The translations under genes were made by a program, and so were the position numbers. Shown here piece after piece: positions 917 to 39,061 of a stretch of 56,650 bases of DNA. The first letter of the stretch is position 1. Each line of letters starts with the position of its first letter. The stretch is from Nitrososphaeraceae archaeon (GTDB lineage Archaea; Thermoproteota; Nitrososphaeria; Nitrososphaerales; Nitrososphaeraceae), in NCBI GenBank assembly GCA_016782225.1, contig JADDOW010000054.1:1-56650 (forward strand), in the 5' to 3' direction. The notes beneath the pieces are model-generated. The model did no database searches and was not told the origin of the DNA. It saw nothing but the letters and a program-made list of their open reading frames with translations.

Positions 917-2113
917 ATGCCAGGCATACTAGAAATCAAGAAAAACCTAGAAAACAGATGGCTTGCATTCCTTAACTCAAATGCAACGAAATTCACGGCA
1001 ACAAATCTTTCGGGGGCAACACCTCCATCAGTTTTTGTAGGCGCATACGGATATCCCAAGGTAAAAGTTGGGCCAATGATCCCACCGTTACATGGTAATA
1101 CCTCAATATTTGACAGTCCAGAGAAATGGCTCGGAAAAAACTTGGTGGAAATTGCAAATTATAGGATGTCACTTGTTAGAGGGGTATTTGATATCGATGC
1201 GCATACAATTTCAGGGAAACAAATAGAATCATTGCAGGAAGTGGCCATGGCAAATTCACCTGCTGAAAGCGAATTGTTATTTGAAAAAATTCCATTTATT
1301 GACATGGAACAAAAGAAAAACACAGGCATTGATGCAGACTCTGCACCCTATGGTTTGACTGCACCCTTAAAAAATTTCAAGGCAAGTTCGTCATTTACAG
1401 TAGACAAAAGAATAGAAAAGGTATTCTACGATGCAGATTTGCCCTCAAAAGACTCTGTAATGAACCTATATCATGACGGGGTGGAAATTAGCAAAATTAA
1501 CCGCATTTTGAGCATCGGGATGGTTGGGTTAAAAAAAAACAGGAAATTGGTCCCAACCAAATGGAGCATTTCTGCTACAGACAGCACAATTTCGGCAAAT
1601 TTGATTAAAAAGATAATAGGAGAAAACTATCAGCCTGTTGATTTGTTTGAGGTATACAAATACTCTCACTTATACAATCACTATTCAGTTGTTTTGATTC
1701 CCTTTAGCACCTGGTCCTTTGAGATGCAGGAGGGATGGCTGGACAGCAAAGGAAACATAGGAATGGGTTCAGATTTTGAAGACGTCAGGGGTATGAACCA
1801 CTATCCACATATAGCTGGGGCATATTTTGCAGGCAGGCTATCAATAGCTGAGCACCTAAATAAAATAAAAAGAAAGGCAGCTGCATTGGTTCTGAGAGAA
1901 ATACACCCTCAGTACATATTTCCAGTTGGGGTTTGGCAGATACGGGAAGGAATTAGAGAAGCCTTAAAAGGCTCTTTCAGGGAATTTGAAAATATTGAGA
2001 GTGCCCTTTCTTTTGCCTGTTCTTCCCTATCAACATCTAAAAACGAATGGATTAGAAATAGCAGAATATATCATAGCGTCAGAGAACAAAAAAGAATTTC
2101 AGAATATTTTTAG
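917..2113 (+). CDS. Nre-family archaeal DNA repair protein with C-terminal PCNA-binding tail
   Basis: The 398-residue product matches the archaeal Nre family: the N-terminal stretch AYGYPKVKVGPMIPP (about residues 43-57), the central KDSVMNLYHDGVEISKINRILS segment in two parts, and the C-terminal KWSISATDSTIS and REIHPQYIFPVGVWQIRE blocks. Length agrees with the family. Nre proteins are genetically linked to repair of DNA damage, with roles shown in haloarchaea, and bind PCNA through a PIP box. The last eight residues, QKRISEYF (391-398), fit the PIP consensus Q-x-x-h-x-x-aromatic-aromatic, which suggests that this protein also docks on the sliding clamp. The N-terminal zinc-finger cysteines found in some Nre members are absent. 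It stands alone, with no operon partner. Frame and start (ATG, no upstream alternative in frame with support) look clean. Confidence 0.92.
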   Translation: MPGILEIKKNLENRWLAFLNSNATKFTATNLSGATPPSVFVGAYGYPKVKVGPMIPPLHGNTSIFDSPEKWLGKNLVEIANYRMSLVRGVFDIDAHTISGKQIESLQEVAMANSPAESELLFEKIPFIDMEQKKNTGIDADSAPYGLTAPLKNFKASSSFTVDKRIEKVFYDADLPSKDSVMNLYHDGVEISKINRILSIGMVGLKKNRKLVPTKWSISATDSTISANLIKKIIGENYQPVDLFEVYKYSHLYNHYSVVLIPFSTWSFEMQEGWLDSKGNIGMGSDFEDVRGMNHYPHIAGAYFAGRLSIAEHLNKIKRKAAALVLREIHPQYIFPVGVWQIREGIREALKGSFREFENIESALSFACSSLSTSKNEWIRNSRIYHSVREQKRISEYF

Positions 2114-35232: not shown

Positions 35233-36201
35233 ATGAGTCTGTGGTACAGCAAGAAGGCGCCCGATTTTGAAACCAAAAACAGCAAATCGGTGCTTCACCC
35301 ATTTACGGTAATGGGCTATAAAGGCCATACCCTGAATTTGTATCAAGGGTGTCATCACAGATGCGGTTATTGCTATGCAACATATGTCTGGTCACCAGAA
35401 TTCTACGATAAAATATACGCCAAAAGTAATGCACCCGAAATTCTTGAAAACCAACTGAAAGCATGGAAATCAAAGGCCATTGAACCAGTAATGATATCAT
35501 CAGCCACGGACGCATATCAGCCAGCAGAACTAAAGTTTGAGTTGACAAGAAAATGCGTCAAAGTTTTGCAGAAATACGGTATCCCTTACTATGTGTTTAC
35601 AAAATCAACACTGATATCAAGGGACATGGAGCTTCATAAACAATACAAAGACAATTGCTTTGTTGTGTGGTCAATTACAACATGCAGTGAAAGCATCAGA
35701 AGAACAATAGAGCCCGGAACTCCACCTGCATCAGCAATGTTTGAGGTAATAAAGAAATTCAGTGATTCTGGAATTCGCTGCGCCATAAATATAGACCCCA
35801 TTGTTCCACTTGTTACAGACCCCCCTAAGGATATTGAATCCATACTTGACAATGGCCTTAAGGCAGGGGTCCAATACGTTTTTGGTTCAACGCTAAGGCT
35901 AAGAGCGGACATATGGGAAAGAATGAAAACTATTTTTGGATTTCTTGGTAATGAAAAAGATGACAGAATCAAAGAATACAGCAGGCTATACCATTTCATT
36001 GAGCCCCTCAGGCAAGGCCATAATCTGGCTGCAGACAAGCATTACTCAAACACCATACTCGAAAACCTAAGGGAAGCAGCAATGAGCAGGGGAATGTCTT
36101 TTGGTTTTCCGCACCTGATCGAAAAAAGCATGCAGTTTAAAACAAAAAAACTGCACAGCGATACAAAAAAAAACCAACCCACACTGATGGATTTTATTTA
36201 G
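35233..36201 (+). CDS. SPL-family radical SAM protein (spore-photolyase-like) with C-terminal PIP box
   Basis: The 322-residue protein is of the SplB/COG1533 type. It has the radical SAM motif Cys40-x3-Cys44-x2-Cys47 in YQGCHHRCGYCYATY, a SAM-binding SSATDAYQP block, VFTKSTLISRD, VWSITTCSESIRRTIEPGTP and INIDPIVPLVTD, and the tail FGSTLRLRADIWERM. All cluster ligands are present, so a 4Fe-4S enzyme is expected. True SPL repairs a UV photoproduct in DNA, but most relatives are of unknown substrate. The last eight residues, QPTLMDFI (315-322), fit the PCNA-interacting pattern Q-x-x-L-x-x-F-h. This would tether the protein to the replication clamp and makes a DNA substrate likely (inference). 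It stands in its own unit with TATA at about 35171-35180. Confidence 0.9.
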   Translation: MSLWYSKKAPDFETKNSKSVLHPFTVMGYKGHTLNLYQGCHHRCGYCYATYVWSPEFYDKIYAKSNAPEILENQLKAWKSKAIEPVMISSATDAYQPAELKFELTRKCVKVLQKYGIPYYVFTKSTLISRDMELHKQYKDNCFVVWSITTCSESIRRTIEPGTPPASAMFEVIKKFSDSGIRCAINIDPIVPLVTDPPKDIESILDNGLKAGVQYVFGSTLRLRADIWERMKTIFGFLGNEKDDRIKEYSRLYHFIEPLRQGHNLAADKHYSNTILENLREAAMSRGMSFGFPHLIEKSMQFKTKKLHSDTKKNQPTLMDFI

Positions 36202-38443: not shown

Positions 38444-39061
38444 ATGAATGATGAGCCCCCGTTAGATTTTTTGTCGCAAAAGGACCTTAATTTATCTAAT
38501 CTAATACAAACGATAGGCAAATACTCGATTGAAACACACAAGGATCCCTTTGAGTCTTTGGTAAAGTCAATAATCTACCAGCAACTTTCATCAAGGTCTG
38601 CAAACGCAATTTACAGCAGATTCTTAAGGCACTATGACAACACCCTTCCAACTCCAAAACAAATCATTTCGACATCTGAAGACACTTTTAGAACCAAAAT
38701 AGGACTGTCACACAAGAAAATACAATACATAAAGGATTTGTCTTTGAGAATCTTCAAAGGGGAATTAAGATTGAGCCTTTTACCGGATATGGCGGATGAA
38801 GAAATCATAGCAGAATTGGTTAAGGTAAGGGGCATAGGTAGGTGGACCGCGGAAATGTTTCTGATTTTTCATTTGGGAAGGGAGGACATAATGCCTTTAG
38901 GTGATTTGGGGATAAGAAAAGCCGTACAGAAACTGTATGGTTTACCGCAACTTCCTAGTCCCTCAAATGTTTTAGAAATCTCTTCATGCTGGAAACCTTA
39001 TAGAAGCATTGCCGCCTGGTATCTATGGAAATCACTTGCTAGCTTTGAATCCATTGGCTAA
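38444..39061 (+). CDS. AlkA-like DNA-3-methyladenine glycosylase (HhH-GPD family)
   Basis: The 205-residue protein is a compact AlkA-type base-excision enzyme. It has the entry helix DPFESLVKSIIYQQLSSRSA (34-53), the helix-hairpin-helix LVKVRGIGRWTAEMFL (125-140) that grips the DNA backbone, and the catalytic Asp in MPLGDLGIRKAV (Asp154). The C-terminal WKPYRSIAAWYLWK is also typical. It should remove alkylated bases such as 3-methyladenine from DNA and hand over to AP endonuclease. It lacks the N-terminal TBP-like domain of E. coli AlkA, as do many archaeal and Mag-type enzymes. It is monocistronic, starting at ATG 38444. It has no iron-sulfur cluster motif. Confidence 0.93.
   Translation: MNDEPPLDFLSQKDLNLSNLIQTIGKYSIETHKDPFESLVKSIIYQQLSSRSANAIYSRFLRHYDNTLPTPKQIISTSEDTFRTKIGLSHKKIQYIKDLSLRIFKGELRLSLLPDMADEEIIAELVKVRGIGRWTAEMFLIFHLGREDIMPLGDLGIRKAVQKLYGLPQLPSPSNVLEISSCWKPYRSIAAWYLWKSLASFESIG

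Follow-up and report, generated by a model that had tools for sequence, protein, structure and literature searches.

COG1533-type radical SAM proteins occur widely in bacteria and archaea, and no substrate is known for them beyond spore photoproduct lyase (SPL, or SplB). The catalytic tyrosines of the Bacillus subtilis SPL are Y97 and Y99 (PMC3742179). MacNeill (2016) described the adjacency of NreB and SplB genes in archaea and posed the function of the archaeal SplB-like proteins as a question; these genes are linked to PCNA via the adjacent NreB (PMC4929162). Since this archaeal SplB-NreB-PCNA link is published, a DNA-repair role had been suspected before. COG1533 SplB genes also occur in the SOS regulons of several bacteria, the subgroup not being stated (PMC8565304). 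Two further groups of relatives, the PA0069 and Rv2578c families, are defined by curated models. For neither of them, nor for the archaeal clade described below, was a published function or clamp contact found in the part of the literature that was covered, which did not include bioRxiv. Within the same partial coverage, no report was found of an SPL-like protein with a clamp motif of its own, and an earlier mention remains possible. Already known are thus the enzyme superfamily, the PIP box, the NreB-SplB link and QLxLF as C-terminal beta-binding consensus (PMC4549789). A precedent for exchange between the two peptides exists in transposases of the IS1634 type, one protein family whose bacterial members use QLxLF for the beta clamp and whose archaeal members use a PIP motif for PCNA (PMC4549789).

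The locus considered here was found in a Nitrososphaeraceae archaeon (assembly GCA_016782225.1). The window, that is, the whole stretch of DNA analysed, comprises positions 1 to 56,650 of contig JADDOW010000054.1 and contains the following features:

35233 to 36201, forward strand: SPL-like (COG1533-type) radical SAM protein of 322 amino acids, from its Radical_SAM domain and AF2 model
35350 to 35373, forward strand: CxxxCxYC iron-sulphur motif (C40, C44, C47) with Y46, followed by Y48; invariant in 32 sequences
36112 to 36174, forward strand: variable linker, residues 294-314, with high entropy and gaps; pLDDT about 50 at residues 305-312
36175 to 36198, forward strand: C-terminal PIP box QPTLMDFI, from conservation in Nitrososphaeraceae and likeness to the DP2 tail
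917 to 2113, forward strand: NreA with Nre_N and Nre_C domains (PF04894, E 6e-76; PF04895, E 1e-36)
2087 to 2110, forward strand: C-terminal PIP box QKRISEYF of NreA, on the same 56-kb contig

The 322-residue translation of the open reading frame at 35233-36201 closes with ...HSDTKKNQPTLMDFI*, so that KKNQPTLMDFI forms the C-terminal end of the protein. In the GTDB collection the window is matched most closely by a genome named Nitrososphaeraceae archaeon (92% identity), and several further close relatives bear the name Candidatus Nitrosocosmicus. A Radical_SAM domain (PF04055) is recognized with an E-value of 7e-13. The nearest NCBIfam models are PA0069 (NF033668; 147 bits against a cut-off of 360, covering model positions 59-291 of 348) and Rv2578c (NF038135; 134.5 bits against 430), both below cut-off, and the model of spore photoproduct lyase itself, TIGR04070, scores only 21.4 bits against 400. 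With PA0069 and Rv2578c the archaeal protein shares the CxxxCxYC motif and a TDxYQPxE core, and like them it ends in a clamp-type peptide. A profile search of the PDB with the archaeal sequence did not reach SPL, whose structure 4fhg is nevertheless the best Foldseek match of the AF2 model in the PDB (E 2e-9, TM 0.62, 11% identity). The model has a mean pLDDT of 88 and is ordered up to about residue 293; order is poor at 305-312, after which comes a short C-terminal helix (318-321), linker and tail having pLDDT values of about 50-60.

Comparison with SPL shows a common radical SAM TIM barrel and, beside the cluster, two active-site tyrosines. In the alignment of 32 sequences C40, C44 and C47 are invariant, as are Y46 and Y48, whose spacing is that of Y97 and Y99 in SPL (PMC3742179). 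The two proteins differ in that the archaeal one carries a clamp tail and seemingly has no cysteine at the place expected for C141, the hydrogen donor of SPL. This position falls at S90 when judged by spacing, not by superposed coordinates; on the same basis the window protein has no cysteine at residues 80-100, and the clade no invariant cysteine there. The window protein is not a spore photoproduct lyase sensu stricto, and since the hydrogen-donor cysteine is seemingly absent (by spacing), repair of the spore photoproduct by the known route is not expected.

The sequence-only reading had proposed that this protein ends in a PIP box, QPTLMDFI, at its extreme C-terminus, and the translation confirms it. 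The motif had been placed at 36178-36198, one codon short; 36178 belongs to its second residue and the actual span is 36175-36198. The extreme C-terminus had also been named as the place where archaeal clamp-binding proteins carry such motifs, and two proteins of the same genome agree with this: DP2, the large subunit of PolD, ends in QPTLLDFL, and NreA in QKRISEYF. The DP2 tail is identical to QPTLMDFI at 6 of 8 residues, the two differences being conservative. The PIPs of archaeal DP2, NreA and NucS resemble the tail described here in motif and in their extreme C-terminal location after a flexible linker, but DP2 belongs to a polymerase, NucS is a nuclease and the chemistry of NreA is unknown, and none of them is a radical SAM enzyme. 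NreA-type protein is a PCNA partner whose PIP is required for repair (PMC4929162), and the NreA encoded 33 kb from the SPL-like gene on the window contig serves as an internal positive control. FEN1 of the same genome ends in SQSLDKWF, a PIP without the canonical glutamine spacing, and RNase HII of this genome has no PIP, so that not all expected clients have one. The genome encodes a single PCNA, and its alignment with archaeal PCNAs of solved structure spans almost the whole protein. In a census of 203 open reading frames of at least 150 amino acids, drawn from the window and 14 syntenic stretches of 13-19 kb, the C-terminal motif was found in 13, comprising 11 copies of the SPL-like protein and 2 of Nre. 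C-terminal PIPs were also sought with a degenerate DNA pattern, which was set aside because it gave 187 matches, mostly outside genes, against 112 for the reversed control.

A lone QxxLxxF C-terminus is weak evidence, and homologues were therefore compared. Across 27 Nitrososphaeraceae sequences, the tail has Q in 25, L, I or M in all and F or Y in all, with entropies of 0.46, 0.87 and 0.92 bits at these three columns. The 20 linker columns ahead of it are mostly above 2.5 bits and heavily gapped, differing in both length and sequence. A conserved tail behind a variable linker is what characterizes a short linear motif at a free end of a protein. In its strict form (Q..[LIM]..[FYW] within the last 16 residues) the motif is present in 46 of 57 members of one clade, which has an SH-aLRT support of 100 in a tree built without the last 25 residues, and in 0 of 47 relatives beyond it. 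The expectation that archaeal homologues keep the tail while the sequence before it varies thus holds inside this clade and fails outside it. Composition alone is expected to yield some occurrences of so short a motif per genome, and a random C-terminus might have come to resemble QxxLxxFh by chance. The comparative data already refute this explanation, to which we assign practically no weight: 46 motifs were observed, spread over several families of the phylum, where 2000 shuffles of the clade tails gave 0.55 on average and never more than 5, and the two closest species differ in the tail by 2 synonymous and 0 replacement changes, in the linker by 2 and 4.

Clade members that lack the strict motif mostly have degenerate versions of it. 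In families f7, f14 and f21 the glutamine is replaced by E, D or I, and it is absent in two genomes of one genus (MVSLVDFM and AVTLLDYI); glutamine is likewise missing from the C-terminal PIP that has been proven for Pyrococcus DP2 (PMC7101311). Scans of the phylum brought only 5 clade members beyond the class, from three families, and all are PIP-like: four have a terminal or near-terminal Q..L..[FY] (QRKLIEYA, QAMLTVFY, QVVLTVFY and QRRLTLYV), and the fifth has QTQLSSYL about 11 residues before its C-terminus. Two genomes of genus g5 depart from this picture, one with a stop codon directly ahead of LKQHQISDFV, by which the tail is lost (L065), and the other with the gene broken in its middle (L072). 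Of the 62 genomes sampled from the window's own family, 48 have the SPL-like gene. It was not found among the listed genomes of the sister family f2 (probably Nitrosopumilaceae), complete ones included, and the clade is missing from some close relatives too; the enzyme is therefore dispensable.

A tail of this kind might also pack on the surface of the enzyme itself or at a dimer interface, its likeness to a PIP box being coincidental. The short helix predicted at 318-321 does indicate helix propensity, but the folded core is complete without the tail, linker and tail are modelled at low confidence (pLDDT about 50-60), and a linker that varies freely in length and sequence is not what such packing would lead one to expect. 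Moreover, relatives outside the clade lack the tail, and bacterial relatives have a different clamp peptide in its place. We hold self-packing to be very improbable.

These bacterial relatives, from the PA0069 and Rv2578c families, carry a beta-clamp motif at the C-terminus, in the same place as the archaeal PIP box, a correspondence that the sequence-only reading had not foreseen. The sample is small (n=23) and was drawn from plasmid and phage collections, some records of which resemble misfiled chromosomes; the relatives in it span four phyla. A strict beta-clamp motif, defined as Q[LIMY]x[LFM][FLI], ends 15 of the 23 proteins, whereas shuffled tails gave 0.08 on average and at most 2. Examples are DQLSLF in Paracoccus, VQLSLL in Sinorhizobium, EQLRLF in Aeromonas, TQLTLL in Streptomyces, EQLSFF in Acetoanaerobium and QLDLFAGIV in Legionella. 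Looser versions are found in seven others (QEPLF, QESLF, QQSLFD, QGELF, QLSLGI, QLGF and QLALV), and a single tail, QMTLADFM, is PIP-like instead of QLxLF. The latter belongs to a homologue on a gut 'phage' clone (L228, MT838272.1), for which an archaeal origin was considered and dropped: its other genes resemble those of gut Bacillota, and the tail is best regarded as an odd bacterial one. Because the bacterial relatives match the PA0069 model to its last position, the tail is part of the PA0069 family.

The archaeal clade and the bacterial families differ in the peptide itself, PIP box against QLxLF, and the archaeal clade is separate in the tree. The two tail-bearing groups are not sisters, tail-less archaeal proteins lying between them (SH-aLRT of these forks only 83-84), and the tails were therefore probably gained or re-coded separately. 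Two differing peptides with one shared meaning, the binding of a clamp, would otherwise be hard to explain. The IS1634-type transposases offer the same domain-specific swap within one family; being mobile-element enzymes, they are a precedent for the swap and no relatives. The bacterial tails also bear on whether the archaeal one binds mainly another replisome protein, such as primase. In Pyrococcus, primase as well as PCNA is bound by the C-terminal PIP of DP2 (PMC7101311), and the tail of the SPL-like protein is almost the same as that of DP2 in its own genome. Bacterial relatives, however, show a beta-clamp motif and no primase motif, which leaves the clamp as the partner shared by bacteria and archaea; a tail directed mainly at another replisome protein is in our judgement quite unlikely. 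We are highly confident that the C-terminal PIP box tethers the radical SAM protein to the sliding clamp, binding data being absent. The clamp tether and the repair or replication-coupled role that had been read from the sequence are likewise supported, without binding data, by the tail kept in homologues of the clade, by the likeness to the DP2 tail and by the beta-clamp tails of bacteria.

Several observations concern the surroundings of these genes in bacteria and viruses. In Sphingomonas (L221) about 420 bases separate a PA0069-family gene from dnaE, and in Legionella adelaidensis (L235) one is divergent from polX, each being a single case. A conjugative Runella plasmid (L216) has a tail-less COG1533 radical SAM gene between HipA-like genes on one side and a gene with a UvrD-helicase domain on the other. 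Viral contigs yielded only distant relatives without clamp tails and PA0069-type genes truncated where the contig stops. A distant radical SAM protein of COG1533-like type is encoded by bicaudaviruses, the two-tailed viruses of Acidianus.

A connection between an archaeal COG1533 radical SAM protein and PCNA is also the feature of the NreB-adjacent SplB-like proteins (PMC4929162), but there the PIP box is on the Nre neighbour, whereas in Nitrososphaeraceae it is on the SPL-like protein itself. A distant SPL-like gene adjoins nre in ten genomes from the class; these SPL-like proteins have no PIP, and most of their Nre neighbours end with a recognisable one. The Nitrososphaeraceae gene is not adjacent to nre: 33 kb separate the two in the window, and complete relatives show no linkage between them. 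It can be inferred that there are two routes to PCNA, one in cis through the protein's own PIP box and the other through an Nre partner. Apart from small local clusters, no conserved neighbour gene that would support a DNA role was found in Nitrososphaeraceae. A NUDIX gene lies downstream of the SPL-like gene in three genomes of one genus. In the window, an HhH-GPD base-excision glycosylase (AlkA-like; 38444-39061) without a PIP tail is encoded 2.2 kb downstream on the same strand, and it is not kept as a neighbour in relatives.

The reading that we consider likely is that of a PCNA-tethered radical SAM enzyme that acts on DNA, with its last eight residues as the tether; binding to PCNA, the DNA substrate and direct reversal chemistry are inferred for the archaeal enzyme. 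In such a mechanism the TIM-barrel domain (residues 1 to about 293) would bear the [4Fe-4S]/SAM site, and a flexible linker of about 20 residues would lead to the PIP box, which may insert into the PCNA pocket as a short helix. PCNA would thereby bring a 5'-deoxyadenosyl-radical enzyme to DNA that has just been replicated or patched by repair, and there the enzyme would most likely remove or directly reverse a base lesion or crosslink; the bacterial relatives may act likewise on the beta clamp through QLxLF. The best fit is a radical enzyme held on the clamp that either reverses a lesion other than the spore photoproduct or uses another hydrogen donor. A clamp-tethered enzyme could also have a target that is no lesion, such as RNA primers, ribonucleotides, nucleotides near the fork or a clamp-bound protein. 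The seeming lack of the SPL hydrogen-donor cysteine leaves room for such targets, as do the absence of a known substrate for archaeal SPL-like proteins (PMC4929162) and the fact that no functional paper on PA0069 or Rv2578c was found. Against them, the established core archaeal PCNA partners work on DNA or RNA (PMC4929162), the closest fold is that of a DNA-lesion enzyme, and bacterial COG1533 genes are SOS-regulated (PMC8565304); a non-lesion target is unlikely, though not negligible. We incline, by a modest degree, to extend the DNA-directed reading to an unrecognised class of sliding-clamp clients, in which the PA0069 and Rv2578c families and the archaeal clade would each use a peptide for their own clamp and serve radical repair of DNA behind the fork, tail-less archaeal SPL-like proteins reaching PCNA via a neighbouring Nre protein instead.

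Tethering to the clamp in bacteria as well as archaea, by a different peptide for each clamp, indicates where an enzyme of this widespread type acts. The tail is a simple experimental handle, since the eight residues can be removed or Q and F mutated, and the function of SplB-like proteins becomes testable in tractable bacteria such as Caulobacter, Sinorhizobium and Paracoccus. The sliding-clamp tool belt would thereby gain a new chemistry.
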